A stretch of 54,874 nt of DNA from an uncultured Oscillospiraceae bacterium (lineage in GTDB: Bacteria; Bacillota; Clostridia; Oscillospirales; Oscillospiraceae). Below the pieces are notes generated by a model that saw only the letters and a program-made list of their open reading frames with translations, was not told the origin of the DNA and did not search any database. A program made the translations under genes and the position numbers. The stretch is from contig CANPYX010000014.1 in NCBI GenBank assembly GCA_947588955.1, positions 1 through 54,874 on the forward strand, written 5' to 3'. Below, in pieces: positions 4,426 through 50,646 of the stretch (its first letter is position 1; every line of letters starts with the position of its first letter).

Positions 4426-4601
4426 AAATATTTTTCCGGCGGCATGTACGTCGGAAAAATCACCTTTTGTTTTGCAAGTGTGCGCCCCTACGGGGCGTGC
4501 GCGCAGCAAAACAGCAGGATAATTTTCTCTGAATTTCGCAAAATTCAGAGAAAATTACCCGCACGTTCCCCCTGTCGACAAAGACCATCGGTCTTTGTCG
4601 A
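4426..4601 (+). repeat. Multi-hairpin intergenic element, copy 1
   Basis: First of six full copies. Hairpin A (4430-4460) is the conserved ATTTTTCCGGCGGCATGTAC...CGGAAAAAT fold. Hairpin B is closed by GTTTTGC/GCAAAAC around GCGCCCC/GGGGCG. Hairpin C (about 4519-4557) has arms built on TTTTCTCTGAATTT with the CGCA tip. The linker CGCACGTTCCCC follows, then hairpin D (TCGACAAAGACC / GGTCTTTGTCGA, 4575-4601) with six T after it. Hairpin D abuts the 3' end of pth. No ORF is plausible. Related copies start at 5251, 13131, 31661, 35745 and 50470, with a remnant at 47583. Confidence 0.9.
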
Positions 4602-4605
4602 TTTT

Positions 4606-5193
4606 TTATCCATTAAACTGGTTCATCGCCCGCTCAACGCCGTGGAGTATGACGCACTCCACCGCGTCGGCGGCGCGCTGGGCGGCGCGGAGTATCTCCT
4701 CCGCGTCCTCATTGCGGAACACGGAGAGCACCCAGTCCACCAGCTCCCTCTCCGGCGGGACCGCGCCCACGCCCAGCCGCACACGGGGGAAGCCCTCGCC
4801 GCCGCACTTGGCGATGATGTCCCGCAGTCCGTTGTGCCCTCCCGCCGAGCCGGAGGGACGCACCCGCAGCCTGCCCAGGTCCAGGTGCACGTCGTCGGAC
4901 ACCACTAAGACGCGCTCCAGCGGCACCTTGTAAAACCGCATTGCATCCGCCGCCGCGTCACCGGAGAGGTTCATGAAGGTCTGTGGCTTCATCAAAAGCA
5001 CCCTGCTGCCGCCAATGTCGCAGACGGCGGTGAGCGACTTGTGCTTTGCCCGGTCAATGCTCACGCCGTGCTTTTTTTCAAACGCCCCGGCGGTGAGGAA
5101 CCCCGCGTTGTGGCGGGTCATCTCATATTTCACTCCCGGATTCCCCAGGAACACAACTATCCAGTCAATATTTGAAGCTTTCTTAAAAAACAT
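4606..5193 (-). CDS. pth: Peptidyl-tRNA hydrolase
   Basis: Releases peptides from peptidyl-tRNA that drops off ribosomes, recycling tRNA. The 195-aa protein has the Pth layout: FLGNPG (15-20, with the conserved Asn18), the catalytic histidine in TRHNAGF (His28), MKPQTFMNLSG, DDVHLDLG with the catalytic aspartate, and SAGGHNGL. Length is typical. It lies downstream of prs on the same strand, as in many Firmicutes, but a multi-hairpin element and a palindrome separate the two genes. The closest GGAGG is about 17 nt before the ATG, so translation initiation may be weak. Confidence 0.95.
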   Translation of the reverse strand: MFFKKASNIDWIVVFLGNPGVKYEMTRHNAGFLTAGAFEKKHGVSIDRAKHKSLTAVCDIGGSRVLLMKPQTFMNLSGDAAADAMRFYKVPLERVLVVSDDVHLDLGRLRVRPSGSAGGHNGLRDIIAKCGGEGFPRVRLGVGAVPPERELVDWVLSVFRNEDAEEILRAAQRAADAVECVILHGVERAMNQFNG

Positions 5194-5250
5194 ACCTGTT
5201 TACCAATTCGACCTCCCTGTCGGGGGCAGTCTGCCAAAAAGCTTGAAATT

Positions 5251-5420
5251 AAATATTTTTCCGGCGGCATGTACGTCGGAAAAATTTCCTTTTGTCGCGC
5301 AAGTGTGCCGCCTCCGGCGGCGCGCGCAGCGCGACAGCAGGGGGAAATTTATGAATTTCGCAAAATTCATAAATTTTTCCCGCACGTTCTCCTTCAAAAA
5401 GGGGCAGCGCCCCTTTTTGA
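5251..5420 (+). repeat. Multi-hairpin intergenic element, copy 2
   Basis: Same order as copy 1. Hairpin A is conserved. Hairpin B is closed by GTCGCGC/GCGCGAC around GCCGCC/GGCGGC. Hairpin C has arms AAATTTATGAATTT... with tip CGCA, followed by the linker CGCACGTTC. Hairpin D is TCAAAAAGGGG / CCCCTTTTTGA (5394-5420), a bidirectional terminator-like palindrome. It fills the prs-pth gap, so pth is flanked by two copies of the element. Confidence 0.9.
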
Positions 5421-5429
5421 GGAAAATTC

Positions 5430-5453
5430 GCCCTCCCCCGGCCGGGGGAGGGC
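5430..5453 (-). terminator. 24-bp perfect palindrome downstream of prs
   Basis: A perfect GC-rich self-complementary sequence (GCCCTCCCCCGG / CCGGGGGAGGGC) lies 20 bp past the prs stop, followed on the minus strand by GAATTTT. It is most simply the prs terminator stem. Hairpin D of the neighbouring repeat follows at once and could back it up. Confidence 0.6.
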
Positions 5454-5473
5454 ACAATAAGCATTAAGACGGA

Positions 5474-6433
<960 letters not shown>

Positions 6434-6547
6434 AGGTTTTTCCTCCAATTGTTTTGGTACATTTATCTTACCACAACCGCCGACAGAAGTGGGTACAAAA
6501 AAGAGACAAAGTTTCGACGCTTTTCGGTCAAATCTTCCTATCGAAGA

Positions 6548-7237
6548 CTATTTCGTTAAAACATCAAATACGTGGAGCGTCCCGTCTGAGACACGAAATT
6601 TCACGTCAAAGCCCCCGTACTCCAGCCCGTAATCCCTTTGCGGGTCCTCCTGATAGGAGGGGCGCGGGTCGTGGGAAAGTATCTCCGAAAGCGCCTCCAG
6701 CGTCTCTGCGGGGAGCTTATTTTGAAGCTCCGGCGGGAAGTCCACCTCCAGCCTCCTCTCCGGCAGTGCGTCGGTGTAGCCGCCCAGGGCGTCGGGGCGG
6801 CAGTCGGCGTAGGGCAGGTAGGGCTTTATGTCGAATATGGGCGTCCCGTCCGTCATATCCGCCCCCGCCACGACGAGAGCGGGTCCCTCCGAATACCCGC
6901 TGTCCACCCCCAGGAGCCTGACGCAGGAGAGCCCGATGGGGTTGGGGCGGAAGGGGGAGCGTGTGGCAAATACCCCGACGCGCCTGTTGCCGCCCAGCCT
7001 CGGCGGGCGCACCGTGGGCGACCAGCCCTCCCGCCGCACCCGGTCAAAGCCCCATATGAGCCAAAGGTGCGAAAAGCCCTCTATCCCCCTGAGCGCGTCG
7101 GCGTTCCTGAATTCCGGCTCAAATACCACCAGCGCCCTGACCTTCTCCGCAAGCCCGCTCTGCCTGGGCACGCCGAATTTGGAGGTAAACCCGCACCGCA
7201 GCCGCGCTATGACCTGAAACGGCACATTTTCCGCCAC
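6548..7237 (-). CDS. trmO: tRNA (t6A37) N6-methyltransferase TrmO (TsaA/UPF0066)
   Basis: SAM-dependent methyltransferase that methylates t6A at position 37 of ACY-decoding tRNAs. The 229-aa product matches the TsaA/VirR-type beta-barrel family: the signature VFATRSPFRPNPIGLS, GIEGFSHLWLIWGF and DGTPIFDIKPYLPYAD. The C-terminal region (about 160-229) corresponds to the extra domain of long TrmO forms. It starts with GTG at 7237, preceded by AGGGGG. It lies upstream of prs on the same strand and is divergent from the flavoprotein gene at 7358. The family is certain; the exact tRNA substrate is inferred from characterised homologues. Confidence 0.9.
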   Translation of the reverse strand: MAENVPFQVIARLRCGFTSKFGVPRQSGLAEKVRALVVFEPEFRNADALRGIEGFSHLWLIWGFDRVRREGWSPTVRPPRLGGNRRVGVFATRSPFRPNPIGLSCVRLLGVDSGYSEGPALVVAGADMTDGTPIFDIKPYLPYADCRPDALGGYTDALPERRLEVDFPPELQNKLPAETLEALSEILSHDPRPSYQEDPQRDYGLEYGGFDVKFRVSDGTLHVFDVLTK

Positions 7238-7300
7238 CGTAAAGCCCCCTTTGATTATTGTAATGTTTATTATAGTCTCATTTCACTTGCTTGTCCATAC

Positions 7301-7329
7301 TTGTCAACCTCGCGGTTTTGGCGTATAAT
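7301..7329 (+). promoter_or_regulatory. Sigma-A promoter of the flavoprotein pair
   Basis: TTGTCA and a perfect TATAAT are separated by 17 bp, about 30 bp upstream of the ATG at 7358, which carries CGGAGG at 7345-7350. Confidence 0.85.
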
Positions 7330-7357
7330 TTACGCAATAAGTATCGGAGGTATTTAT

Positions 7358-8557
7358 ATGGATACCGTCATCATCGGCGCGGGCGCCTCAGGGCTCGCGG
7401 CGGCGATCGAGGCGGCGGGGCGCGGAAGCGTCGCCGTCCTTGAGCGCGCCCCGCGCGTTGGCAGGAAACTCGCCGTCACCGGCAACGGGCGTTGTAACCT
7501 TACGAATCTGAACATGGGCCCGGAGCATTACCACGGGGAGGAGCCGGACTTCGTGCTCCCCGCCCTGACAGCCTTCGGCGTGGGGGACACCATCGCCTTT
7601 TTCCGCTCATTGGGGCTCATCACCGTCTCCGAGCCCTCTGGCAGGGTCTATCCCCTCTCCGAGCAGGCGGGGAGCGTTGTAGATGTGCTGCGCTTTGCCG
7701 CGTCCGAGGCGGGCGCGCAGCTCCGCTGCGGCGTTTGCGTTCGGGAGATACGCCCCGAAGCCGGCGGCTTTCGGGTGATCTCCGACGGCCCGGAGCTTCA
7801 CGCCCGAAACGTCGTCGTCTCCGCCGGCGGAGCCGCGGGGACGGTCGCCGGCGGCAGTGAGTCCGGATACCTCCTTTTGGAGCGCCTGGGGCACACCCGC
7901 ACAAGGCTCAGCCCCTCCCTTGTTCAGCTCAAGACCGACAACTCCTTCACCCGCCCGCTCAAGGGCGTGCGCGCTCCGGCGGCGGTGAGGGTAATGAGCC
8001 GCGGCAGGACCGTCGCCGAGAGCTCCGGCGAGGTCCAGTTTACCGACTACGGCGTCTCCGGCCCCGCGATATTTGAGGTCTCACGCGCGGCGGTGACCTG
8101 CCCCGACTGCGTCATATGCCTGGACCTCGCCCCGGTCACGGGGTTTGACGAGCTTGCGGATATGCTTGACGCCCGCCGGAGCGCCCACCTTACCGCCGAA
8201 AATTTGCTGACGGGTATGCTCCACAACAAGGTGGGCAGGACGCTGGTCACGCGCCTGGGATACCCCCTGGCGGCGCCCGTTTCGACCCTCACCCGCGCGG
8301 ATACGGACCGCGTCGCCCGCGCCGCGAAGCGCGTGGAGCTGCGGGTCACCGGCAGCATGGGCATGGAGGGCGCGCAGGTCACCGCCGGGGGCATAAGGAC
8401 ACGTGAATTTGACCCCGCCACATTGGAAAGCCGCCTCGTCCCAGGACTTTTCGCCTGCGGCGAGGTGTTGGACGTGGACGGCGACTGCGGCGGCTACAAT
8501 CTCCAGTGGGCGTGGAGCTCTGGCAGGCTGGCGGGAAGGCTGGGTGACAGACCGTGA
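7358..8557 (+). CDS. HI0933/YhiN-family FAD-dependent oxidoreductase
   Basis: The 399-aa flavoprotein has an N-terminal dinucleotide-binding fold (VIIGAGASGLAAAIEA, residues 4-19), the family motif RKLAVTGNGRCNLTN, and a C-terminal FAD-contact segment (FACGEVLDVDGDCGGYNLQWA). These define the HI0933-like family, annotated as aminoacetone oxidase or NAD(P)/FAD-dependent oxidoreductase; the physiological substrate is generally not established. The reading frame is open far upstream, but the ATG at 7358 has CGGAGG 7 nt before it and a consensus promoter just upstream. It overlaps the next flavoprotein gene by 4 bp, so they are co-translated. Confidence 0.9.
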   Translation: MDTVIIGAGASGLAAAIEAAGRGSVAVLERAPRVGRKLAVTGNGRCNLTNLNMGPEHYHGEEPDFVLPALTAFGVGDTIAFFRSLGLITVSEPSGRVYPLSEQAGSVVDVLRFAASEAGAQLRCGVCVREIRPEAGGFRVISDGPELHARNVVVSAGGAAGTVAGGSESGYLLLERLGHTRTRLSPSLVQLKTDNSFTRPLKGVRAPAAVRVMSRGRTVAESSGEVQFTDYGVSGPAIFEVSRAAVTCPDCVICLDLAPVTGFDELADMLDARRSAHLTAENLLTGMLHNKVGRTLVTRLGYPLAAPVSTLTRADTDRVARAAKRVELRVTGSMGMEGAQVTAGGIRTREFDPATLESRLVPGLFACGEVLDVDGDCGGYNLQWAWSSGRLAGRLGDRP

Positions 8558-10125
8558 TCAGACTGCGCGACATATCCCTCCCCGCACGGGAGGACTCAAG
8601 GGCGGCGCTCCTTCGCGCGGCGGCAAGGGAGCTGCGGGTGCGCGAGGGCGATATCCTCGAAATGAAGCTCCGCCGCCGCTCCGTGGACGCCCGCCGCCGG
8701 GGGGACGTGAGAATACTTTATACACTCGACGTGAGTACCGCCGCGGAGGACGCCGCCGTTTTGAAAAACGCGGGCCACAAGGCGTCGGCGGCGGAGGAAT
8801 ATACCTACTCGCCCCCCGCCGAAAGCCGCCTGAGCTCGCGCCCCGTGATAGCCGGATTCGGTCCCGCGGGCATGTTCGCGGGGCTCGTTCTGGCGTATGC
8901 CGGGGCCCGCCCCATAATTTTCGAGCGCGGCAGGGACGTGGACGCCCGCGCCCGCGACGTGGAGCGGTTCTGGGAGACAGGCGCGCTTGACACCGCCTCC
9001 AACGTCCAGTTCGGCGAGGGAGGCGCCGGGGCCTTCTCCGACGGCAAGCTCAACACCGGCATCAAGGACCCTCGTATCCGCTGGGTCCTGGAAAGGTTCG
9101 TGGAGTTCGGCGCGGAGGAGAGCGTGGCGTATGACGCCAAGCCCCACGTGGGCACGGACAGGCTCAGGACCGTGGTGAAAAATCTGCGTGAAAGAATAAT
9201 CTCCCTCGGCGGCGAGGTCCGCTTTGGGTCCGCCCTCACCGGGATACGCCTTCGCGGCGGCAGGGTCGCCGGCGTCACGGTGAACGGCGCGGAGGAGATA
9301 GCCTGCGACAGCCTCATTCTGGCGGTGGGCCACAGCGCCAGGGACACCTTTGAATACCTCCACGCCCTGGGCGTCCCCATGGAGCCCAAGCCCTTCGCCA
9401 TGGGCGTCCGCGCGGAGCACTCCCAGGCGGCGCTGAATAAGTACCGATTCGGCTCCTTTGCGGGCCTTAAATCCCTGGGCGCGGCGGACTACAAGCTGGT
9501 GTGCCACACCTCCGCGGGCTCGGCGTATACCTTCTGTATGTGCCCCGGCGGTTACGTGGTCAACGCCTCCTCCGAGCCCGGCGGCGTCTGCACCAACGGC
9601 ATGAGCTGGTCCGGGCGCGCCGGGGAAAACGCCAACTCCGCCCTTCTGGTGGGGCTGGACCCCTCAGATTTCCCATACCATGGCGCCCTTGGCGGCGTGG
9701 AGTGGCAGCGGGAGATCGAGCGCCGCGCCTTTGACGCCGCCGGCGGGTACCTCGCCACCGCCCAGACCGTGGGCTCCTTCCTCGGCGGCTCCGCCGCCCC
9801 GTCGGTGACACCCACCCTCCGCCCCGGCGTAAAATACTCAGACCTCCACGGCGTCCTTCCAAAAAAAATAACCTCCGCCCTGGAGCTTGCCCTGCCGGAG
9901 TTTGCCAAAAGGCTCCCCATCTTCTCCGACCCCGGCGCGGTCCTCACCGGTCCGGAGACGCGAAGCTCCTCCCCGGTGCGCATACTCAGAGACAGTACCC
10001 GCCAATCCGCCGTTCGCGGCCTCTTTCCCTGCGGCGAGGGCGCGGGCTACTCCGGCGGCATAACCTCCTCCGCTGTAGACGGCATCCTCACCGCCGAAAC
10101 GCTCCTCTCCCTTTCAAATCCCTGA
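8554..10125 (+). CDS. COG2509-type FAD-dependent protein
   Basis: The 523-aa flavoprotein starts at GTG 8554, overlapping the previous stop by 4 nt. The first 90 residues form a basic N-terminal domain typical of the COG2509 'FAD-dependent dehydrogenase' group. They are followed by VIAGFGPAGMFAGLVLA (about 98-114, FAD-binding), then VQFGEGGAGAFSDGKLNTG and LRDSTRQSAVRGLFPCGEGAGYSGGI near the C-terminus, all family hallmarks. No substrate is known with confidence. Tandem placement with a HI0933-like gene suggests a joint redox role, which is inference. Confidence 0.88.
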   Translation: MIRLRDISLPAREDSRAALLRAAARELRVREGDILEMKLRRRSVDARRRGDVRILYTLDVSTAAEDAAVLKNAGHKASAAEEYTYSPPAESRLSSRPVIAGFGPAGMFAGLVLAYAGARPIIFERGRDVDARARDVERFWETGALDTASNVQFGEGGAGAFSDGKLNTGIKDPRIRWVLERFVEFGAEESVAYDAKPHVGTDRLRTVVKNLRERIISLGGEVRFGSALTGIRLRGGRVAGVTVNGAEEIACDSLILAVGHSARDTFEYLHALGVPMEPKPFAMGVRAEHSQAALNKYRFGSFAGLKSLGAADYKLVCHTSAGSAYTFCMCPGGYVVNASSEPGGVCTNGMSWSGRAGENANSALLVGLDPSDFPYHGALGGVEWQREIERRAFDAAGGYLATAQTVGSFLGGSAAPSVTPTLRPGVKYSDLHGVLPKKITSALELALPEFAKRLPIFSDPGAVLTGPETRSSSPVRILRDSTRQSAVRGLFPCGEGAGYSGGITSSAVDGILTAETLLSLSNP

Positions 10126-10143
10126 CCCCGCCTGATTTCGGGG

Positions 10144-10172
10144 TTGATTTAATCTCCCTCTTGTGTTACAAT
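10144..10172 (+). promoter_or_regulatory. Sigma-A promoter upstream of the NYN gene
   Basis: TTGATT and TACAAT are separated by 17 bp, about 45 bp upstream of the TTG start at 10219. Confidence 0.65.
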
Positions 10173-10218
10173 AATCCTAATTGACTGCCTTTACCCTATT
10201 GCAAAGGAGTGGGACGGC

Positions 10219-10998
10219 TTGCCAATCCTTCCCGATAACATTTCAAATAAGCGCCTCGCGGTGCTCATAGACGCCGACAACGTCCCACGCGGCACACTGG
10301 CGGGGATAATGCAGGAGGTAGCCATCTACGGCACCCCCACGATCAAGCGTATCTACGGCGACTGGACCGGTCCGCACATCCAGGGCTGGAAGATGTCCCT
10401 CCTGGAAAACGCCGTGACGCCCATCCAGCAGTACAGCTACACCACCGGCAAAAATTCCACGGACTCGGCAATGATAATCGACGCCATGGACATCCTCTAC
10501 AACGAGCGCGTGGACGGCTTCGTACTGGTCAGCTCCGATTCCGACTTCACGCGCCTCGCCATACGCCTCAGGGAGGCCGGCATGACCGTCTTCGGCATCG
10601 GCGAGCGCAAGACCCCCGGACCCTTCATAGCCGCCTGCGACAAATTCATATACATCGAAAACATCAAGCAGCCCGGCGAGACGGTCCAGGTGGAGGAGGC
10701 TCCCCAGCCCAAGGACAGGCGCAAGCAGACCTCCCGTGACGACAGCGGCCGTCTCCCCAAATCCGTCATCCGCCTCATCGCCCAGTCCGTGGCGGACCTC
10801 ACCGAGGGGGAGGACGCGGTGTACATGGGCGAGCTTGGCAACCTCATCATGAAGAAAAAGCCGGATTTCGACGTGCGCAACTACGGCTTTAAATCCCTGA
10901 GCGCCATGATAAAATCCATCGACCGCTTCGAGGTGGACTTCCGCCAGACGGCGGACCCCAACGTGAAGCACCCCTACGTAAGGGACAAGGAGGCATAG
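10219..10998 (+). CDS. NYN-domain (LabA/DUF88) protein with C-terminal OST-HTH/LOTUS domain
   Basis: The 259-aa protein has an N-terminal NYN/PIN-like nuclease fold. The acidic metal-site residues are visible in LIDADN (17-22), NSTDSAMIIDAMDIL, and VLVSSDSDF. A charged linker (about 150-170) precedes a C-terminal LOTUS/OST-HTH-like region ending in SLSAMIKSIDRFEVDF. Proteins of this layout are thought to bind and possibly cleave RNA; no substrate is known here. The start is TTG with GGAG 9 nt upstream. The metallophosphoesterase gene follows after 10 nt, so they probably form an operon. Confidence 0.87.
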   Translation: MPILPDNISNKRLAVLIDADNVPRGTLAGIMQEVAIYGTPTIKRIYGDWTGPHIQGWKMSLLENAVTPIQQYSYTTGKNSTDSAMIIDAMDILYNERVDGFVLVSSDSDFTRLAIRLREAGMTVFGIGERKTPGPFIAACDKFIYIENIKQPGETVQVEEAPQPKDRRKQTSRDDSGRLPKSVIRLIAQSVADLTEGEDAVYMGELGNLIMKKKPDFDVRNYGFKSLSAMIKSIDRFEVDFRQTADPNVKHPYVRDKEA

Positions 10999-11008
10999 CG
11001 TACCCCAC

Positions 11009-11848: not shown

Positions 11849-11919
11849 CGAAAAACTGTAATAAAATATCCCGCCCCCGCATATAATGATATGTATTTTA
11901 TTTCCAAGGGGGTAGAGAT

Positions 11920-12021: not shown

Positions 12022-12026
12022 ATAAC

Positions 12027-13130: not shown

Positions 13131-13367
13131 CTTCTTCAAAAAGGGCTTTGCCCTTTTTGAAGAAAGGGGAACGCATTCAGAAGAAGGCGTGAATTCTGGG
13201 GAATTCACGCCTTCTTCTGAAGGGGGAACGTGCGGAAAAATTACCGGAAATGTCTGCGGACGTTTCCGGTAATTTTTCCTGCTGTCGCGCTGCGCGCGCC
13301 GCCGAAGGCGGCACACTTGCGCGACATAAGGTGATTTTTCCGACGTACATGCCGCCGGAAAAATATT
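13131..13367 (-). repeat. Multi-hairpin intergenic element, copy 3 (extended)
   Basis: Read on the minus strand it has hairpin A, hairpin B (GTCGCGC/GCGCGAC), hairpin C with arms AAAAATTACCGGAAA and tip CCGCA, then CGCACGTTCCCCC. It differs by an extra 21-bp perfect palindrome (13176-13221, tip CCCA) followed by a second GCGTTCCCC. Hairpin D (13131-13165, CTTCTTCAAAAAGGG / CCCTTTTTGAAGAAG) then abuts the prfB stop codon and is the likely prfB terminator. The [palindrome + CGTTCCCC] unit thus occurs twice, suggesting a modular structure. Confidence 0.9.
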
Positions 13368-13383
13368 AAATTTGAAAGCTCAT

Positions 13384-13625
13384 TCCCCCGTCGCAACTGC
13401 TGCCGTAGAAGCTCCCACCGGGGGTTCTCCACATAGGGGGCCGCAGCCCCCTGTGTGGTCGTTTTTAAAAGGGGATTGTCAAGGGGGAAAATCGAAATCC
13501 CCCTTGACCCGTTTTTCTCCTCTTTGTTACTTTCTCCTCTTTTGACGGGTCAAAAGAGGAGAAAGTAAATCCCTCCGCCATTTAATGGCGGACTCATTAT
13601 AAAAAGCCCAGCGGCTTAGGAGCGT
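13384..13625 (+). repeat. Palindromic repeat family E, copy 1
   Basis: A non-coding string of hairpins: CACATAGGGGGC.../...CCCCCTGTGTG (13430-13457), GTCAAGGGGG / CCCCCTTGAC (13478-13508), a 20-bp-arm palindrome TTACTTTCTCCTC.../...GAGGAGAAAGTAA (13527-13568), and CCGCCAT/ATGGCGG (13575-13591). It then runs into ACTCATTATAAAAAGCCC. The inverse complement of 16436-16680 matches it along nearly its full length, with paired substitutions in the stems. Confidence 0.85.
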
Positions 13626-13662
13626 CGGCGTCATATAATGGCGGACTCATTATAAAAAGCCC
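13583..13662 (+). repeat. 27-bp direct repeat at the end of family E copy 1
   Basis: The 27-bp unit beginning TAATGGCGGACTCATTATAA occurs at 13583-13609 and, identically, at 13636-13662, a 53-bp period. It is the distal part of the family E element, so this looks like a partial tandem duplication of the repeat end. Confidence 0.85.
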
Positions 13663-13676
13663 CGCAGGTTCAGAGC

Positions 13677-13705: not shown

Positions 13706-13741
13706 ACCGTTACCAACACATTCCCACGGAGGCGCCCAACA

Positions 13742-16401: not shown

Positions 16402-16435
16402 ATCACAAAAAGGGCCGCGCCCATAGGGGGCGCGG

Positions 16436-16680
16436 GGGCTCCGGAGCCGCGGGGCTCTTTGTAAGGTGTCCGCCCTTATGGGGCGGGGGGATTTTCTTTC
16501 CTCTCTTTTGGTTTCGCCAAAAGAGAGGAAAGAAACAAAGGAGAGAAAAGCGACCAGAGGGGGATTTCGATTTTCCCCCTCTGGACACCCCTTTTAAAAA
16601 CGACCACACAGGGGGCTGCGGCCCCCTATGTGGAGAACCCCCGGTGGGGAGCAACGCCGGCAGCAGTTGCGACGGGGAAA
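16436..16680 (-). repeat. Palindromic repeat family E, copy 2
   Basis: The inverse complement aligns with 13384-13625. Hairpins are TTTCTTTCCTCTC.../...GAGAGGAAAGAAA (16493-16535), CCAGAGGGGG / CCCCCTCTGG (16554-16584), CACACAGGGGGC.../...CCCCCTATGTG (16605-16632), and CCGCCC/GGGCGG (16470-16486). Stem sequences differ from copy 1 but remain complementary. The two copies flank the cobT-cobU-cobS operon as an inverted pair. Confidence 0.85.
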
Positions 16681-16689
16681 GGGAACCTG

Positions 16690-17020
16690 TCGATTACCGC
16701 TCCGCAGCGCCCAATGGCGAAGCCGAGGGCGCGGATGTAGGAGTAGGGCGTTGGATTACAGACGCGGCAGCACACGCCGTGTAGGAGCAGCACTGAAACA
16801 TTCTGCCCGATTTTAGAGCCAAAGCGCGGCGATGTTAAGGAGTAGGGCGTCCTGACGACCGACCACGTTAAGCGGCTAAGCGAGTTCGGAGACTGTGCAA
16901 TTCGGTTTAGGGAACCCGCGCGCCGATTCTTCTGCCCGTGCGCAAAACATTCAGACTGCGGGAGCCGTCGCGAGACTAAACGGTAGGGCGTAACAAGTTT
17001 TTGCCGACCCCAAAATAAAA
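16690..17020. other. Non-coding stretch with recurring GTAGGGCGT motif
   Basis: I find no credible gene here. The motif GTAGGGCGT recurs at about 16743, 16842 and 16983, twice inside GGAGTAGGGCGT. Other short repeats are ACATTC near TCTGCCCG (16797, 16926, 16949). It lies between a family E repeat and the related hairpin at 17024-17090. It could be decayed repeat DNA, a degraded mobile element, or an unrecognised RNA. Confidence 0.5.
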
Positions 17021-17023
17021 AAT

Positions 17024-17090
17024 TCTTTTTCTCTCTTTTGCTTCTTTTCTCATCTTTTTCTCATTTCTGAGAAAAAGATGAGAAAAGAAG
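17024..17090 (+). repeat. Partial family E repeat with 23-bp-arm hairpin
   Basis: A perfect inverted repeat with 23-bp arms (17041-17063 and 17068-17090, loop TTTC; arms begin CTTCTTTTCTCATC) is preceded by TTTTTCTCTCTTTTG, as in family E copies. Other hairpins of the family are absent, so this is a truncated copy or an independent relative. On either strand it ends in A/T-rich arms and could act as a terminator. Confidence 0.7.
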
Positions 17091-17141
17091 ACCTACCGTT
17101 TCCCGCACCAGCGGGAATTAGCCGCACCCGCGGTGAGGCAA

Positions 17142-31616: not shown

Positions 31617-31660
31617 ATTTCACCTCATTGGCTGCTTGCCAAAGGAAAAGATTCTAATTC

Positions 31661-31837
31661 AAATATTTTTCCGGCGGCATGTACGTCGGAAAAATCACCT
31701 TTTGTCGCGCAAGTGTGCCGCCTCCGGCGGCGCATGCGGCGCGACAGCAGGAAAAAATTTATGAATTTCGCAAAATTCATAAATTTTTTCCGCACGTTTC
31801 CCCTTATCTGAAAAAGCCCGTCAGGGCTTTTTCAGAT
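31661..31837 (+). repeat. Multi-hairpin intergenic element, copy 4 (inside the cob operon)
   Basis: Hairpins A, B (GTCGCGC/GCGCGAC) and C (arms AAATTTATGAATTT..., tip CGCA) and the linker CGCACGTTTCCCC are all present. Hairpin D (ATCTGAAAAAGCCC / GGGCTTTTTCAGAT, 31806-31837) overlaps the last codons and stop of btuC. It is the only insertion breaking the otherwise overlapping genes of the riboswitch-controlled operon, and D is a plausible internal attenuator. Confidence 0.9.
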
Positions 31838-32867
31838 TGATCATTAGCCAGATGACGATGGGGGCTCCTATGGCGCTGGTCACGGTGCCGACGGAGAGCT
31901 CGGTGGGGGAGAAGACGGTGCGGGCCACAAGGTCGCAGAAAACGCAGAATACCGCGCCGCACACAAAGGAGGCGGGGACCATGAGGATGGGCTTTGAGGA
32001 TTTGAGGAGTATGCGGCATATGTGCGGCACGGCTATGCCCACAAAGGAGATGGGCCCGGCAAAGGCGGTGACGCAGGCGGAGAGAACGCTGGAGAGGAGA
32101 ATGAGCAGTACGCGAAAACGCCTCACGTTGACGCCCAGGCTCAGGGCGTACCCCTCCCCCAGGGCGTATGCCGAGATGGGTTTGGACAGGAGAAAGACAC
32201 AAAGGAACGTGGGCAGGACGATGAGGGCGGAGATCTTCACGTCCCGCCAGGAGGCGGCGGAGAAGCTGCCCATTGACCAGTGGGTCAGGTTCACAATGTC
32301 CGCCTCCTTTGCGAAGTTGATGAGGAAATCCGTGACGGCGGAGCAGATGTAGCTTATCATTATGCCGATGACCAGGAGCATGGACATATTTTTGAGCCTG
32401 CCGCCAAAGAGAAGGGCGAACATCATGGTGAACATGGAGCCCAGGAACGCCGCCGCCACCGTGACAGCCACGGGGACCGTGGGTATCCAGGCGCTCAGGG
32501 CGATGGTGACCACGGCGAGGAACATTTTGGCGCCGGAGGATATGCCCAGGACAAAGGGGCCGGCGATGGGGTTGCGGAAGAAGGTCTGGAGGAGGAACCC
32601 GGAAAGGGACAGGGCTCCTCCCAGCACCGCCGCCAGCATGAGCCGGGGCAGGCGTATCTTCCAGATTATGTTGAACGCCGAGGCGTCCGCCGCAAGCTCC
32701 CCGCGCTCAATGGCGCCCTTGTGGAAGATCATGCGCCAGATCTCGCCCACGGGTATGCTGACGCTGCCGGAGTTTATGCTCCATATGACGGAGAGGACGA
32801 AGAGAGCGAAAAGGGAGATGAATACCGCGCAGTAGCGCGCGGTATTCAGTTTGACGTTTACGTTCAT
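31821..32867 (-). CDS. btuC: Corrinoid ABC transporter permease (FecCD/BtuC family)
   Basis: The 348-aa polytopic membrane protein has about nine or ten hydrophobic helices. The FecCD signatures LPRLMLAAVLGGALSLSGFLLQTFFRNPIAGPF-type segment and GPISFVGIAVPHICR match BtuC-type permeases. It overlaps btuF by 4 bp. The substrate is assigned from the cobalamin riboswitch and the cob genes; FecCD permeases for iron siderophores are the alternative. Confidence 0.93.
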   Translation of the reverse strand: MNVNVKLNTARYCAVFISLFALFVLSVIWSINSGSVSIPVGEIWRMIFHKGAIERGELAADASAFNIIWKIRLPRLMLAAVLGGALSLSGFLLQTFFRNPIAGPFVLGISSGAKMFLAVVTIALSAWIPTVPVAVTVAAAFLGSMFTMMFALLFGGRLKNMSMLLVIGIMISYICSAVTDFLINFAKEADIVNLTHWSMGSFSAASWRDVKISALIVLPTFLCVFLLSKPISAYALGEGYALSLGVNVRRFRVLLILLSSVLSACVTAFAGPISFVGIAVPHICRILLKSSKPILMVPASFVCGAVFCVFCDLVARTVFSPTELSVGTVTSAIGAPIVIWLMINLKKP

Positions 32868-34178: not shown

Positions 34179-34279
34179 AGCATATGTACCCTTGTCCGGT
34201 GGCAGGGAGGGTGCACCGCTCCCCTCACCCGAAGGCAAAGGTAAACGCCGCACTCCTCTATACCCAGAAATGATCGCGA

Positions 34280-34420
34280 TAAAGAACCGGGCCGGTATTC
34301 TGGCTTGAGACGCCGAAAACGTGGCGTCAGTTACAGTAATGGCAGTTGCGCCGGATTTTCACCGGCTTCCCCGTTTGATCTATTCGGTAAAACCTTTCAA
34401 ACCGCAGTCCATGACAGCTA
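34280..34420 (-). promoter_or_regulatory. Cobalamin (B12) riboswitch
   Basis: Read on the minus strand, the core has the B12-box pattern: GGGAAGCCGGTGAAAATCCG, then GCAACTGCC-ATTACTGTAACTG, and the 3' element AAGCCAGAATACCGG. These are hallmark conserved blocks of the cobalamin aptamer. It lies between a consensus promoter (34438-34466) and an intrinsic terminator (34141-34178) upstream of btuF. Repression of the whole 14-gene operon by adenosylcobalamin or a related corrinoid is the established behaviour of this class. Confidence 0.95.
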
Positions 34421-34437
34421 TTCAATTTTCACGGAGG

Positions 34438-34566: not shown

Positions 34567-34639
34567 TGGACCTGAAGAGACTCGAACTCTCGACCTCTCG
34601 GATGCGAACCGAACGCTCTCCCAGCTGAGCTACAGGCCC
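34567..34639 (-). tRNA. tRNA-Ala (anticodon CGC)
   Basis: A complete 73-nt cloverleaf. The acceptor GGGCCTG/CAGGTCC includes the G3-U70 wobble that identifies alanine tRNA. The D stem is GCTC/GAGC, the anticodon stem TTCGG/CCGAG with loop TTCGCAT, and the T arm is GAGAG-TTCGAGT-CTCTT. The discriminator is A and no CCA is encoded. It reads the GCG codon, which is frequent in these GC-rich genes. Confidence 0.95.
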
Positions 34640-35744: not shown

Positions 35745-35921
35745 CTTTTTCTCAAAAGGGCTGAGCCCTTTTGAGAAAAAGGGGAACGTTCAGAAAAATC
35801 CCTTGAATTCTGCGGAATTCAAGGGATTTTTCCTGCTGTTTTGCTGCGCGCGCCGCCGGAGGCGGCACACTTGCAAAACAAGAGGTGATTTTTCCGACGT
35901 ACATGCCGCCGGAAAAATATT
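35745..35921 (-). repeat. Multi-hairpin intergenic element, copy 5
   Basis: Read on the minus strand it has hairpin A and hairpin B closed by GTTTTGC/GCAAAAC (as in copy 1 but with the GCCGCC/GGCGGC inner stem). Hairpin C has arms AAAAATCCCTTGAATT... and tip CCGCA, followed by ACGTTCCCC. Hairpin D is CTTTTTCTCAAAAGGG / CCCTTTTGAGAAAAAG (35745-35781). It lies between the 45-aa ORF region and the 3' end of the peptidase-E-like gene. With copy 5 the window 35637-35990 contains no gene. Confidence 0.9.
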
Positions 35922-35990
35922 GAATTTTGGGGTTTTGACAGTTTAAACCGCCGTGGGCACTCAGCCTGCGGCGGTTTTCACTTTTTTAAA

Positions 35991-41434: not shown

Positions 41435-41472
41435 TTTTCCCCCGTATCACATGGGAGAGGAGGTAAACACAT

Positions 41473-43398: not shown

Positions 43399-43406
43399 GT
43401 GACGGT

Positions 43407-43754
43407 ATGGGAACGGGACAGGCGTTTGTAAAGTGGCTGAAACCGGGCGGTGCGGCGCTGGTGCTGATACTTGCCGTTATCGCCACCGTCATGCTCTTCA
43501 CCGCCAGGGGCACCCCCGTGGAGGGCTACGCCGCGCCCCACGGCGGGGACTATTACGCCGACAGGCTTTCGGAGCTTAAAACGGAGATCGAGACGAATCT
43601 CCTGCCGAAAATAGACGCGCCGGGGGTGGAGCTGGGGCTTTCGGAGGGCGCCGTCACCGTCACGGGACCCAAAGAGCCCCTGCAAACGGCGAGGCTTGCC
43701 ATAATACACTATTTTGACCCCGAACTATTTGAGTTTACGGAGGTGCCGGAATGA
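43407..43754 (+). CDS. Small single-pass membrane protein
   Basis: A 115-aa protein with one transmembrane helix (about residues 14-35: VLILAVIATVMLF) and a short extracytoplasmic domain rich in Glu and Pro. I chose the ATG at 43407 with GAGGTG 8 nt upstream; a GTG at 43395 overlapping the previous stop codon is possible. No family is recognised. Its position between an LTA-synthase-like gene and nadE (4-bp overlap with nadE) suggests an envelope accessory role. Confidence 0.75.
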   Translation: MGTGQAFVKWLKPGGAALVLILAVIATVMLFTARGTPVEGYAAPHGGDYYADRLSELKTEIETNLLPKIDAPGVELGLSEGAVTVTGPKEPLQTARLAIIHYFDPELFEFTEVPE

Positions 43755-45682: not shown

Positions 45683-47042
45683 CCTGATAGCCGCCGTCGC
45701 CACGGGCGCCGCGCGCTCGGCGATAGGCATAATACGCCTCTCCGGCGAGGGGGCGATAGACTGCGTTGACGCGGTTTTCAGGGCGGCGTCGGGGAGAAAA
45801 ATGGCTGATACGCCCTCAAATAAGCTGGTTTACGGCGGGATATACGACGAAAACGGCGGTCTTTTGGACATGGGGCTGTGCTTCGTTGCCCGCGCGCCGA
45901 AAAGCTACACCGGCGAGGACACGGCGGAGCTTCAGTGCCACGGCTCGCCGGCGGCGCTGGGGGAGGTGCTGGCGGAGCTTCTGAAAAACGGCGCGCGCCA
46001 GGCAAAGCCGGGGGAGTTCACAAAGCGCGCCTTCCTCAACGGGAAGCTTGACCTCACCCGTGCGGAGGCGGTTATAGACCTCATCGACGCGGACACGGAC
46101 CTTGCCGCGAAAAACGCCGCCGGACAGCTCGCCGGCGCTGTGACGCGCAAGACCGACGCCGTGTACTCAGACCTTCTGGACATTGCCGCCCACTTCCACG
46201 CGGTGGTGGACTTTCCAGACGATGACGTGGAGGAATTTGAGCTCCGGGACTACCTGGGGACGCTGGAGAGGGCGGAAAAAACGCTCTCGGACCTTCTGGA
46301 CACCTTCGGGCGGGGGAGGGTCATACGCGACGGGCTGGAGTGCGCCATCGTGGGGAGCCCCAACGTGGGGAAATCCTCGCTCCTCAACGCGCTTCTGGGC
46401 TTTGAGCGGGCAATCGTCACCGATATTCCCGGAACCACCAGGGACACGGTGGAGGACACCTGCGTTTTGGGTGGTGTGAAGCTCCGGCTCATCGACACGG
46501 CGGGACTTCGCAAAACGGACGACGCCGTGGAGATGATGGGGGTGGAACGCTCCTACGCCGCCATGAGGCGGGCAAAGCTCATTTTTGCCGTGCTGGACAG
46601 TTCGCGCCCCATGACGGGGGAGGAGGCGGAGCTCATAAAAAAAGCCGCCTCGACGACGAGGACGGTGATGGTGTTAAATAAATCCGACCTTCCCGTAAGG
46701 CTCGCGGTACCGGCGGAGCTTGAGGGAATTCCCCGAACCGGGCTGTGCGCCCTGACGGGGGAGGGGACACGTAAGCTTTCGGAGCTTGTGGCGGGGCTTT
46801 TCCAGCAGTACGGGGACGCGCCGGAAGGGGAGATACTGACAAACGACCGCCAGGCGGGGGAGGTCCGCGCCGCGCTGGAGGCGGTGAGGGACGCAAAAGG
46901 AGCCCTTCAGGAAGGGGTGACCCCGGACGCCGTGCTCACGGAGCTTGAGGACGCTATGGACTCATTGGGAAGGCTTGGCGGCAGGACGCTCTCCTCCGAC
47001 GTGACGGACAGGATTTTCAGCCGCTTCTGCGTGGGGAAATGA
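45675..47042 (+). CDS. mnmE: tRNA uridine-34 5-carboxymethylaminomethyl GTPase MnmE
   Basis: With MnmG it makes cmnm5U34 on tRNAs using a folate cofactor. The 455-aa protein has an N-terminal folate-binding domain (GRXXXXIXR-like SAIGIIRLSGEGA), a helical domain, the embedded G domain (GSPNVGKSSLLNALL, DIPGTTRDT, DTAGL, NKSD), and the characteristic C-terminal FSRFCVGK with the essential cysteine. It ends the LTA-synthase operon; mnmG is not in the window. Confidence 0.96.
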   Translation: MSDLIAAVATGAARSAIGIIRLSGEGAIDCVDAVFRAASGRKMADTPSNKLVYGGIYDENGGLLDMGLCFVARAPKSYTGEDTAELQCHGSPAALGEVLAELLKNGARQAKPGEFTKRAFLNGKLDLTRAEAVIDLIDADTDLAAKNAAGQLAGAVTRKTDAVYSDLLDIAAHFHAVVDFPDDDVEEFELRDYLGTLERAEKTLSDLLDTFGRGRVIRDGLECAIVGSPNVGKSSLLNALLGFERAIVTDIPGTTRDTVEDTCVLGGVKLRLIDTAGLRKTDDAVEMMGVERSYAAMRRAKLIFAVLDSSRPMTGEEAELIKKAASTTRTVMVLNKSDLPVRLAVPAELEGIPRTGLCALTGEGTRKLSELVAGLFQQYGDAPEGEILTNDRQAGEVRAALEAVRDAKGALQEGVTPDAVLTELEDAMDSLGRLGGRTLSSDVTDRIFSRFCVGK

Positions 47043-47049
47043 CCGACAG

Positions 47050-47085
47050 AAAAATCCCCCCGACGGGGCGGTGTCCGCGGGGGAA
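47050..47085 (-). terminator. Terminator of the small XRE gene
   Basis: On the minus strand, TTCCCCCG / CGGGGGGA is followed by TTTTT. It lies 6 bp past the stop of the XRE gene and between it and the converging mnmE. Confidence 0.78.
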
Positions 47086-47090
47086 CCATA

Positions 47091-47441
47091 TCACTTCATG
47101 CCGTTTTTGAACTCCTTCACGGCGTCGGTCAGGTCCTTTATGCTCTCCAGAAGCGCCTGCTGTTCACGGCCGGCGGCGCGGATCATGCTGAGAAAATCGT
47201 CACGCTCCATCCCGATGTTGGGCTGACCGAAGATGATGTGGTCGGAGGTGACGTGCAGGGCGCCGCACAGACGCTCGATGAGCTCCAGGGACGGGCCGGA
47301 TACGCCGCGCTCAACGGCGCTGAGGTGGTTCGGGGTGACACCCACCGCCTCGGACAGCTCCTCCTGGGTCATGTGCGCCTCCTCGCGGAGCCTTTGGATG
47401 TTCGCGCCGACGCGTATGTTTATGGGCTTTCGCTCCCGCAT
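47091..47441 (-). CDS. Small XRE-family transcriptional regulator
   Basis: A 116-aa protein with an HTH_XRE domain (about residues 11-66: IQRLREEAHMTQEELSEAVGVTPNHLSAVERG) and a short C-terminal tail with a predicted helix. There is no ligand domain, so the signal is unknown. AGGGAGG precedes the ATG. It has its own promoter and terminator and converges on mnmE. Confidence 0.87.
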   Translation of the reverse strand: MRERKPINIRVGANIQRLREEAHMTQEELSEAVGVTPNHLSAVERGVSGPSLELIERLCGALHVTSDHIIFGQPNIGMERDDFLSMIRAAGREQQALLESIKDLTDAVKEFKNGMK

Positions 47442-47470
47442 TGTGCCGCCTCCCTCCGTCGATTTATTAT

Positions 47471-47499
47471 ATTTTATCCGTTTTATTTTGACCGTTCAA
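47471..47499 (-). promoter_or_regulatory. Promoter of the small XRE gene
   Basis: Minus-strand TTGAAC and TAAAAT with a 17-bp spacer, 30 bp upstream of the start. Confidence 0.7.
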
Positions 47500-47582
47500 C
47501 ACTGTGACGCAATCAGAAAATAAATGCAATACACCGAATAAATTCTCGCGCCGCGCGGAGAGACGAGATTACCCGAATCTGA

Positions 47583-47640
47583 TATTTTAACGGCGGAGGG
47601 TACGCCGGAAAAATCATCTTTTTTGCTGAAATTTTTCCTG
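47583..47640 (+). repeat. Remnant of the multi-hairpin element
   Basis: Contains a degenerate hairpin A (ACGGCGG...GTACGCCGGAAAAATCAT) followed by a shortened T-rich segment ending TTTTTCCTGC. Hairpins B, C and D are missing. Located in the XRE-ppdK intergenic space just before the ppdK promoter. It is a decayed copy or a distant relative. Confidence 0.55.
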
Positions 47641-47648
47641 CAAAGAGC

Positions 47649-47677
47649 TTGAAAACGGGAGATACTGCTGGTATAAT
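47649..47677 (+). promoter_or_regulatory. ppdK promoter
   Basis: TTGAAA and a perfect TATAAT with a 17-bp spacer, about 60 bp upstream of the ppdK start. Confidence 0.85.
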
Positions 47678-47738
47678 ATCTGTGGTTTTTTCCGAGAATG
47701 AAAAAAATTCAAATTTTTATACGAGGAAGGATAAACAA

Positions 47739-50372
47739 ATGGCTAAAAAGTATGTCTACCTGTTCTCAGAGGGCAACGCCAACATGCGTGAGCTCCTGGG
47801 CGGCAAGGGCGCTAACCTTGCCGAGATGACCAACATCGGGCTCCCCGTGCCCCAGGGCTTCACCATCACCACCGAGGCCTGCACCCAGTACTACGAGGAC
47901 GGCCGCACCATCAACGATGAGATCATGGGGCAGGTCAACGAGTACGTCAAAAAGATGGAGGAGATGAACGGCAAGAAGTTCGGCGACCTTACGAACCCCC
48001 TGCTGGTCTCCGTACGCTCCGGCGCCCGCGCCTCCATGCCCGGTATGATGGACACCATTCTGAACCTGGGACTCAACGACGACGTTGTCGCCGCCATGAT
48101 AGCCGGCAACCCCGACCCCAAGTTCGAGCGGTTCGTCTATGACTCCTACCGCCGCTTCATCCAGATGTTCTCCGACGTGGTCATGGAGGTGGGCAAGAAG
48201 TACTTCGAGCAGCTCATCGACGCCATGAAGGAGCGCAAGGGCGTGAAGTACGACGTGGAGCTCACCGCCGCGGACCTGAAGGAGCTGGCCAGCGAGTTCA
48301 AGGCGGAGTACAAGAAGCAGCTGGGTCAGGACTTCCCCTCCGACCCCCAGGTACAGCTTTACGAGGCCATCCGCGCGGTGTTCCGCTCCTGGGACAACCC
48401 CCGCGCCAACGTCTATCGCCGGGACAACGACATCCCCTACTCCTGGGGCACCGCCGTCAACGTCATGCCCATGGTGTTCGGCAACCTGAACGACAACTCC
48501 GGCACGGGCGTCGCCTTCACCCGTGACCCCGCCACCGGCGAGAAGAAGCTCATGGGCGAGTTCCTCACCAACGCCCAGGGCGAGGACGTGGTGGCCGGCG
48601 TCCGCACCCCCATGCCCATCTCCCAGATGGAGGAGAAATTCCCTGAGGCTTATGCGGACTTTGTAAGGGTCTGCGACATACTTGAGAACCACTACCGCGA
48701 CATGCAGGACATGGAGTTCACCGTGGAGAACGGCAAGCTCTATATGCTCCAGTGCCGCAACGGTAAGCGCACCGCCCCCGCCGCTTTGAAGATCGCCTGC
48801 GATCTGGTGGACGAGGGCATGATAGATGAGAAGAAGGCCGTCTCCATGATCGACCCCAGGAATCTGGACACCCTTCTCCACCCCCAGTTCGACCCCGCCG
48901 CTTTGAAGAAGGCCCAGGCAATCGGCCGCGGCCTCGGCGCCTCCCCCGGCGCTGCCTGCGGAAAGGTTGTCTTCTCCGCGGAGGACGCCAAGGAGTGGAA
49001 GGCCAGAGGCGAGAAGGTCGTTCTTGTCCGCCTTGAGACCTCACCAGAGGACATCGAGGGCATGAAGGCCGCCCAGGGCATACTTACCGTCCGCGGCGGT
49101 ATGACCTCCCACGCCGCCGTCGTCGCCCGCGGAATGGGCAAGTGCTGCGTCTCCGGCTGCGGCGAGATCAATATGGACGAGGCGAACAAGAAGTTCACCC
49201 TGGCCGGAAAGACCTATCACGAGGGCGACTGCATCTCCATCGACGGCTCCACCGGCAACATCTACGACGGGCTCATCCCCACCGTGGACGCCACCATCTC
49301 CGGTTACTTCGGACGCATCATGGCCTGGGCCGACAAGTACCGCAGGCTCAAGGTACGCACCAACGCGGACACCCCCGCGGACGCCAAGAAGGCCCGTGAG
49401 CTGGGCGCCGAGGGCATAGGACTTTGCCGCACCGAGCACATGTTCTTCGGCGACGGCCGTATCGACGCCTTCCGTGAGATGATCTGCTCCGAGACTGTTG
49501 AGGAGCGCGAGGCCGCCCTTGCGAAGATACTTCCCATGCAGCAGGCCGACTTCGAGGGGCTCTACGAGGCGCTGGAGGGCACCCCGGTTTGCATTCGGTT
49601 CCTCGATCCCCCGCTCCACGAGTTCGTTCCCACCGAGGAGGCCGACATCGAGATCCTGGCGAAGGCCCAGGGCAAGAGCGTTGAGACCATCAAGGCGCTC
49701 ATCGCCTCCCTCCACGAGTTCAACCCCATGATGGGTCACCGCGGCTGCCGCCTTGCCGTCACCTATCCGGAGATCGCCGTGATGCAGACCCGCGCCGTCA
49801 TCCGCGCCGCCATCAACGTCCAGGCCAAGCACCCCGACTGGAACGTTGAGCCTGAGATCATGATCCCGCTGGTGGGCGAGGTCAAGGAGCTCAAGTACGT
49901 CAAGGACTTCGTGGTCAAGACCGCCGACGAGGAGATCGCCAATGCGGGCGTGGAGCTTAAATATCAGGTTGGCACCATGATCGAGATCCCCCGCGCCGCC
50001 CTCACCGCCGACGACATCGCGAAGGAGGCCGACTTCTTCTGCTTCGGCACCAACGACCTCACTCAGATGACCTACGGCTTCAGCCGTGACGACGCCGGAA
50101 AGTTCCTGAACGCCTACTATGACGCCAAGATCTTCGAGAACGACCCGTTCGCCAAGCTCGACCAGGTTGGCGTGGGCAAGCTCATGAAGATGGCCATAGA
50201 GCTGGGACGTCCCGTGAATCCCAAGCTCCACGTGGGCATCTGCGGCGAGCACGGCGGCGACCCGACGAGCGTGGAGTTCTGCCACACCATCGGCCTCGAT
50301 TACGTCAGCTGCTCCCCCTTCCGCGTCCCCATCGCCCGCCTCGCCGCCGCCCAGGCCGCGATCAAGGGCTGA
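47739..50372 (+). CDS. ppdK: Pyruvate, phosphate dikinase
   Basis: Interconverts pyruvate, ATP and Pi with PEP, AMP and PPi; in anaerobes it often runs in the glycolytic (ATP-forming) direction. The 877-aa protein has an N-terminal ATP-grasp-like domain, the phosphohistidine His458 in GGMTSHAAVVARGMGKC, and the C-terminal PEP/pyruvate TIM barrel with GICGEHGGDP (Cys835 acid/base). Length matches single-chain PPDKs. The ATG at 47739 is preceded by GAGGAAGG; 30 upstream codons read through the promoter. Confidence 0.97.
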   Translation: MAKKYVYLFSEGNANMRELLGGKGANLAEMTNIGLPVPQGFTITTEACTQYYEDGRTINDEIMGQVNEYVKKMEEMNGKKFGDLTNPLLVSVRSGARASMPGMMDTILNLGLNDDVVAAMIAGNPDPKFERFVYDSYRRFIQMFSDVVMEVGKKYFEQLIDAMKERKGVKYDVELTAADLKELASEFKAEYKKQLGQDFPSDPQVQLYEAIRAVFRSWDNPRANVYRRDNDIPYSWGTAVNVMPMVFGNLNDNSGTGVAFTRDPATGEKKLMGEFLTNAQGEDVVAGVRTPMPISQMEEKFPEAYADFVRVCDILENHYRDMQDMEFTVENGKLYMLQCRNGKRTAPAALKIACDLVDEGMIDEKKAVSMIDPRNLDTLLHPQFDPAALKKAQAIGRGLGASPGAACGKVVFSAEDAKEWKARGEKVVLVRLETSPEDIEGMKAAQGILTVRGGMTSHAAVVARGMGKCCVSGCGEINMDEANKKFTLAGKTYHEGDCISIDGSTGNIYDGLIPTVDATISGYFGRIMAWADKYRRLKVRTNADTPADAKKARELGAEGIGLCRTEHMFFGDGRIDAFREMICSETVEEREAALAKILPMQQADFEGLYEALEGTPVCIRFLDPPLHEFVPTEEADIEILAKAQGKSVETIKALIASLHEFNPMMGHRGCRLAVTYPEIAVMQTRAVIRAAINVQAKHPDWNVEPEIMIPLVGEVKELKYVKDFVVKTADEEIANAGVELKYQVGTMIEIPRAALTADDIAKEADFFCFGTNDLTQMTYGFSRDDAGKFLNAYYDAKIFENDPFAKLDQVGVGKLMKMAIELGRPVNPKLHVGICGEHGGDPTSVEFCHTIGLDYVSCSPFRVPIARLAAAQAAIKG

Positions 50373-50418
50373 GAGACACAAGAGGGAATAAAACTTAAAA
50401 AACCGCGATAATCATCTG

Positions 50419-50445
50419 CACCATCCCCGTTTTTCGGGGGTGGTG
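50419..50445 (+). terminator. Terminator-like hairpin after ppdK
   Basis: An 11-bp stem (CACCATCCCCG / CGGGGGTGGTG) with a TTTTT loop lies 46 bp past the ppdK stop; only a weak T-tract follows. Confidence 0.6.
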
Positions 50446-50469
50446 TAGGCTTTATCAAAACTCATAATA

Positions 50470-50646
50470 AAATATTTTTCCGGCGGCATGTACGTCGGAA
50501 AAATCACCTTTTGTCGCGCAAGTGTGCCGCCTTCGGCGGCGCGCGCAGCGCGACAGCAGGAACAAATATTTGAATTTCGCAAAATTCAAATATTTGTTCC
50601 GCAAATTTTCGGTTTGGCAAAAAGGGCTTTGCCCTTTTTGCCAAAC
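50470..50646 (+). repeat. Multi-hairpin intergenic element, copy 6
   Basis: Hairpins A and B (GTCGCGC/GCGCGAC) are conserved, and hairpin C has arms CAAATATTTGAATTT... with tip CGCA. The linker is altered (CCGCAAATTTTC instead of CGCACGTTC). Hairpin D is GTTTGGCAAAAAGGG / CCCTTTTTGCCAAAC (50612-50646). D ends just 2 bp before the ribosome-binding site of the gene at 50662, so it may attenuate or insulate that gene. Confidence 0.9.

Follow-up and report, generated by a model that had tools for sequence, protein, structure and literature searches.

The four-hairpin repeat dispersed through the 54,874-nt stretch of DNA analysed here (the window, contig CANPYX010000014.1 of an uncultured Oscillospiraceae bacterium) is very probably a MITE-like, non-autonomous transposable element of the IS1182 family. 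In the mechanism we propose, an IS1182 transposase would act in trans on the terminal repeats of the element, and the unit would be joined at the feet of a hairpin, thereby duplicating or replacing it. With age, a terminal repeat and one hairpin copy would be lost, and hairpin D plus local gene-end sequence would turn into the terminator of the adjoining gene. The A-B fold is kept, either as RNA or as DNA in single-stranded form. On this reading, a large repeat family from uncultured gut bacteria, so far unclassified, gains a likely mover, and the positions of assembly breaks are explained by IS1182 copies. The sites also show whole hairpins duplicated in nature around members of the IS1182 family, a process that the available text of a paper on IS1272 only draws as a branch of its model. 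One copy of the element rewrites a gene end by giving it a new stop codon, and a MITE with an RNA-like core held by compensatory change across genera makes the reason for the RNA fold testable.

Copies in the window and spread among relatives

An earlier note on this DNA had described six full copies with the order hairpin A, hairpin B, hairpin C, linker and terminator-like hairpin D, and all six were found where it had placed them. Copy 1 (4384–4603, plus strand) starts with the 5' terminal repeat CAAACTGTTGACAAAC (4384–4399), followed by A (4430–4460), B (4468–4513), C (4514–4562) and D (about 4573–4603); its covariance-model match covers 4425–4579 (159.8 bits). Terminal repeat-like sequences also precede Copy 2 (5227–5420, plus strand; CAGTCTGCCAAAAAG at 5227–5241, core 5250–5400, D 5393–5420, 172.7 bits) and Copy 5 (35745–35944, minus strand; AAACTGTCAAAACC at 35931–35944, core 35773–35923, D about 35745–35781, 164 bits), the latter with a terminator-like hairpin upstream at 35945–35977. 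Copy 4 (31641–31838; core 31660–31810, D 31806–31838, 169.4 bits) and Copy 6 (50469–50648; core 50469–50619, D 50612–50648, 168.8 bits) both lie on the plus strand, and Copy 3 (13131–13369, minus strand; core 13215–13369, 159.1 bits) carries two D-like hairpins within 13131–13221. A hairpin D is present in every copy, but the idea of one conserved hairpin has to be dropped, as its sequence varies by site. The core of about 150 nt (A-B-C) is joined to D by the linker CGTTCCCC, and the full unit measured 204–221 bp in the five copies of the source genome with both ends measurable.

With a covariance model built from 13 copies, the six window copies scored 159–173 bits and a decayed remnant at 47579–47713 (plus strand) scored 25.3 bits, while the remaining 14 of 21 listed window matches (47 bits or less) mostly came from these hairpins read on the other strand. 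The source genome (2,563,483 bases in 58 contigs) gave 147 matches at E ≤ 0.01, among 150 scored of 1,681 first-look candidates, and 88 of these matches reached at least 96 bits. Hairpin A was located at 105 sites in the DNA examined from this genome, including decayed copies and probably one chance site. The many hundreds of copies per genome that had been predicted were thus an overestimate, the number being approximately 90–105; the window is richer than average, with six copies against about 1.9 expected from the genome's 88.

The covariance search located the element well beyond the window. At E ≤ 1e-6 it matched 29 of 34 genomes of the genus and, weakly, one of 26 further relatives drawn, and in a wider draw at E ≤ 1e-10 it matched 71 of 300 genomes, representing 39 of 106 genera. 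These are rough E-values from mostly fragmented metagenome assemblies, with lists of at most 51 matches per genome in the genus search and 10 candidates scored per genome in the wider draw. Among the 80 loci listed, of 106 in named genomes with the exact hairpin-A pattern, were some in Pseudoflavonifractor gallinarum, Intestinimonas, Lawsonibacter and many rabbit-gut Oscillospiraceae assemblies, and many of these hairpin-A loci scored more weakly with the model than copies of the source genome. The element matched no Rfam family: nothing reached the gathering score over the window copies, and 14 loci, relatives included, gave only six matches, all sub-threshold, in a listing up to E 0.5. Carriage as phage or plasmid cargo was likewise disfavoured, with no match to the exact hairpin-A pattern in viral_contigs and none to an 86-nt A-B query in plasmids or phages.

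The window holds other repeats and structured elements. A further dispersed repeat forms an inverted pair (13383–13576 and 16486–16680, 81% alike), also occurs at 16409–17141 and has many matches in the sister genome G019; a 48-nt unit lies in two tandem copies (85% identical) at 13576–13676. A cobalamin riboswitch (34273–34422) and a tRNA (34567–34639), both on the minus strand, scored above the gathering score, and a T-box-like match at 54009–54156 (plus strand) scored 46 bits against a gathering score of 93.

Terminal repeats, insertion sites and the likely IS1182 partner

The terminal repeat of the element is of CAGACTGTTGACAAAC or CAGACTGTCAAAAAAC type, and its right end folds into D, including the inverted terminal repeat. 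Scanning the 75 nt before hairpin A with up to three mismatches, we found a 5' repeat of either type in 24 of 105 source-genome copies, compared to 13 of 1,820 control windows; its offset before A was 27–29 nt in 12 copies, 45–47 nt in 10 and elsewhere in two. Both terminal repeats were present in 10 of the 105. Counting against the IS1182 reading, a 5' repeat could not be recognised in 81 of 105 copies and a hairpin duplication was lacking in 91 of 97, so most copies are assigned to the element by their shared core.

Both repeat types match the ends of IS1182 elements in the genus: CAGTCTGTCGACAAAC/CAGACTGTAGACAAAC ends occur in G019 and G032, and CAGTCTGTCAAAAAAC-type ends in G014, G001, G012 and G010. 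Among 12 transposase loci inspected, six have matching IS ends with the same hairpin on both sides, as do some copies of the element, and six do not. A model of the IS1182 transposase matched 20 of the 34 genus genomes (eight over the cut-off), its cut-off was passed by all four proteins tested, and two IS proteins carry DUF772 and DDE_Tnp_1_6 domains. The unit itself is gene-less, with no transposase gene inside, and searches with PF13751 and the IS1182 model found no complete transposase gene in the source assembly, which also counts against the IS1182 reading. Ends of the IS, however, lie at contig edges: the G019 IS gave 17 matches in the source genome, 13 of them at contig edges. One is in the window, where positions 1–76 (minus strand) are an IS1182-family element end cut by the contig edge, with the terminal repeat CAGTCTGTCGACAAAC at 61–76 and 99% identity to the G019 IS end over 1–78. 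A terminator-type hairpin (AATCGGGGCGGC..GCCGCCCCGATT, 77–104) directly adjoins this end. Ten loci yielded nine IS terminal repeats for inspection by eye; eight lie clearly next to a hairpin, and that of L393 lies next to an imperfect one. Two pairs of contig ends in the source genome have one hairpin in common (by eye), and the assembly evidently breaks at these sites because of the multi-copy IS1182 element. Two copies in the source genome (L003 and L010) adjoin IS ends.

Several observations have to be set beside this match. The autonomous IS elements inspected have no A-B core, which counts against an IS1182-derived MITE. Comparing IS1182 matches with element number by eye across the 34 genus genomes gave no clear relation, and the source genome and others are rich in elements with no transposase match at all. 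It is very unlikely that a different transposase moves the element and that the likeness to IS1182 ends is coincidental. The terminal repeats are short and variable, as such an account would expect, and a third IS1182-type lineage exists (L371), whose GGGGCTGTGAAAA ends have IS-like counterparts interrupting hairpin C at three loci of the source genome (L120, L123 and L137). Against it, two separate repeat types are each found on the elements as well as on the IS, and the hairpin duplications that the two leave are alike in kind. Spread by a RAYT (Y1) transposase, as for REP or BIME sequences, seems more improbable still, notwithstanding the many dispersed extragenic hairpins; inverted terminal repeats and long duplications, both present here, are not known features of REP biology. 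The REP comparison drawn in the earlier note gained no support from a partner search with Y1_Tnp, which gave no matches in the source genome and matches in five of 14 control genomes. This absence is weak evidence in an assembly broken at repeats, which lacks the IS1182 transposase gene as well even though it contains IS ends.

The IS1182 reading is further favoured by what lies at the insertion sites. Target duplications of IS1182 elements range from 0 to 60 bp, and direct duplications of 19–44 nt, usually a whole hairpin, flanked six of 97 source-genome copies, seven of 19 in genus relatives, three of 42 in pieces of G019 and 11 of 34 in other genera. Mispaired controls gave three, zero, zero and zero, respectively, each of 500. 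Among 65 named loci (a set overlapping that of the other genera), 17 had a duplication, compared to two of 500 controls, and a first duplication test of 102 source-genome copies placed 15 above the 95th percentile of controls where five were expected. The counted duplications at L046 and L318 are not hairpins.

Orthologous empty sites, whose presence or absence bore on the earlier suggestion of a mobile palindromic element, were found in sister genomes and, together with the terminal repeats and hairpin duplications, bear that suggestion out. The site of Copy 4 is empty in G019, G011, G017, G024, G005, G031 and G021, and Copy 4 inserted in the lineage of the window. As to a possible removal of the target hairpin on insertion, a GC-rich palindromic stretch (for example CTCCCGCCGGCGGGAG) stands at this place in relatives and is absent from the window; the seven empty sites are predicted to fold with modest stability (−10.5 to −16.5 kcal/mol, not compared with shuffles). 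G019 is approximately 95% identical to the source genome in shared flanks, and 37 of the 105 hairpin-A sites had both flanks in the G019 DNA examined, 12 of them aligned by eye and the other 25 judged by gap length only. At L007, the source-genome copy lies between two copies of a 28-nt hairpin and G019 has a single hairpin. Copy 1 lacks A-B-C in G019 but keeps D there, reflecting either loss or gain; at Copy 6, a deletion between direct repeats has removed A, B and half of C from G019, which keeps the other half of C and D. Presence of Copy 2 in G019 fits the gap length, Copy 5 is present with a nested insert in hairpin B found there only, and the remnant at 47579–47713 corresponds to a full copy at the same place in G019 (aligned with L303). 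The nested insert is restricted to the source genome at three other sites, at one of which G019 has a second hairpin A instead. One further aligned site has a copy in both genomes along with other differences, and the differences at sites 29, 44 and 63 are assignable to neither insertion nor loss.

Gene ends and the folded core

Gene context, taken from a simple ORF caller, places the element mainly at gene ends. Copies in the source genome lie between convergent genes (40), in tandem antisense (33) or tandem sense (15) pairs, or between divergent genes (five), with one side uncalled in 12; the corresponding numbers are 21, 9, 3, 2 and 1 for other genera and 7, 7, 1, 2 and 2 for genus relatives. 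In 77 of 97 source-genome copies the gene next to D runs on the opposite strand, but targeting of one orientation was rejected as an explanation, this excess coming mostly from that of convergent gene pairs. Tandem pairs alone inform on orientation, and they were antisense versus sense in 33 versus 15 cases in the source genome, 9 versus 3 in other genera and 7 versus 1 in genus relatives.

Stop codons on the D side often lie beside D, approximately 165–185 nt away from A. Among 74 copies with such a stop, 72 have a stem of 9 bp or more close to it; 20 of these stems included stop-codon bases and 15 reached coding sequence, of which two are hairpin C and two come from one locus. Copy 4's D supplies the stop codon of a minus-strand gene. 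Two simple origins of D were rejected: a purely native terminator, given that a AAAAGGGC..GCCCTTTT core recurs near hairpin A (22 of 25 in 790 kb of G019, three of three in the window), and a purely element-borne hairpin, given the gene-end bases in the arms of those 20 stems. Hairpin D combines the end of the element with sequence from the local gene end. The proposal of a modular terminator stands in part: D is a terminator-like hairpin, often beside or overlapping a neighbouring stop codon, and a role in termination is predicted.

Folding predictions point to structural constraint on the core. Two of the six window copies folded as RNA with z = −11.3 each, a stability that none of 200 shuffles reached. 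In the 13-copy alignment, hairpin A was invariant and 18 of 49 pairs had changed on both sides, all in B and C. When 35 sequences representing at least 15 genera were compared, 19 of 28 A-B pairs had changed on both sides and 94.9% of cells paired; none of 500 shuffles reached the observed level of covariation, and partners slid by 1–3 columns paired in 40–53%. This structure was derived from the same alignment in which it was assessed, which favours it. One U-G pair of the core is retained in all 35 sequences, and one hairpin-A pair is G-U in 28, A-U in six and C-G in one. Because such wobble pairs work on the A-to-D strand only, that strand is constrained, as RNA or as single-stranded DNA. 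In the other genera inspected by eye, hairpin C is seemingly absent and a different hairpin lies upstream of A. The structured RNA cassette suggested earlier is partly supported, by the covariation of the A-B core across genera and by its one-strand G-U pairs; expression and function as RNA are putative.

A covarying fold across genera is not required of a MITE and counts against that reading. Alternatively, the unit could be first of all a structured RNA or a module for 3' ends (terminator, insulator or mRNA-stability element) that is under host selection and that IS1182 movement only spread, which we regard as rather unlikely. The core covariation over at least 15 genera and the invariant U-G pair are in its favour, as are the D stems that take in stop-codon bases or reach coding sequence and the excess of convergent (40) over divergent (five) copies. 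However, five of 34 genus genomes (one 98% complete) have no match at E ≤ 1e-6, copies get lost and decay, and transposase targeting of terminators accounts for the gene-end location without selection. A bolder version of an RNA function, also rather unlikely, is that much of the family Oscillospiraceae conserves the A-B core as a functional RNA, carried by a miniature transposon that lands next to transcription terminators. Hosts would gain portable structured 3' ends that remodel termination and gene tails, and the fold would be kept because the RNA serves the element or the host.

A second structured element, approximately 105 nt long and with the motifs GGGGTCCCC, AGAGGAGGAGC, GCGCCTGAG, GAGGTTAAGCG and GCGACGACGA, had 54 distinct copies in the loci examined and none in the window. 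It occurs at L127–L146 (inside hairpin B of many copies), L299, L337:6389–6501 and L086:953–1080, the last directly upstream of a tmRNA gene. Its insertions lie inside hairpin loops: of hairpin B, of a terminator-like hairpin (L337) and of the ~105-nt element itself (L138, L314 and L346). In this element, 20 of 31 pairs had changed on both sides (none of 500 shuffles reached that), Rfam gave no match over it, and a model search at E ≤ 1e-6 matched 32 of 150 genomes and 28 of 106 genera, with at least 25 copies in the source genome. It is possibly a separate, undescribed loop-inserting mobile RNA-like element. Copies with a nested insert (L130, L135, L144, L145, L146 and L299) often have mismatched lower arms of hairpin B by eye (e.g., TTTTGC versus GCGTGA), as though each half derived from another copy.

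Comparison with known systems

Other dispersed bacterial repeats resemble the element in part. REP and BIME sequences are likewise dispersed extragenic palindromes; unlike them, the present element has terminal inverted repeats and hairpin duplications, and no Y1 transposase was found in the source genome's broken assembly. BOX elements of Streptococcus pneumoniae are, like the present element, many, dispersed, modular and intergenic, with RNA-like folding, and we know of no link between them and IS1182. Their sequence and host differ from those of the present element (PMC3049150).

The closest parallels are within the IS1182 family. The available portions of the work on IS1272 describe insertion at stem-loops regardless of their primary sequence, several of these being confirmed transcription terminators (PMC4923244), and propose that the stem-loop is replaced, the model having a further branch in which the whole hairpin is duplicated (PMC5678879). 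IS1272/TnSha1 share with the present sites the location at stem-loops, and the stem-loop replacement described for them (PMC4923244, PMC5678879) may apply here as well. They differ in having a transposase gene and in being reported without target duplication, whereas the present unit is gene-less and shows hairpin duplication. For IS1272, the best studied relative, those portions report no target duplication (PMC5678879, PMC4923244), which counts against the MITE interpretation. The IS1272 scheme, as far as those texts present it, fits the present elements if acting in trans on a gene-less unit, which would make them of a kind already known. A published IS1182-type MITE, MITEPye1 of Paracoccus yeei, is likewise described in the available text as small, gene-less and intergenic, with IS1182-like terminal repeats and a predicted RNA fold, albeit with 1–3 copies per chromosome and 4-bp direct repeats (PMC11578231). 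Unlike MITEPye1 as described there, the present element occurs in approximately 90–105 copies, shows hairpin duplications, possesses a covarying core and ranges across the family. Searches of the open-licence PMC literature listed no IS1182 MITE that targets terminators in these bacteria. Both MITEs of the IS1182 type and the targeting of hairpins have been published before; what is new is this family of elements, its RNA-like core, its copy number and its hairpin duplications.
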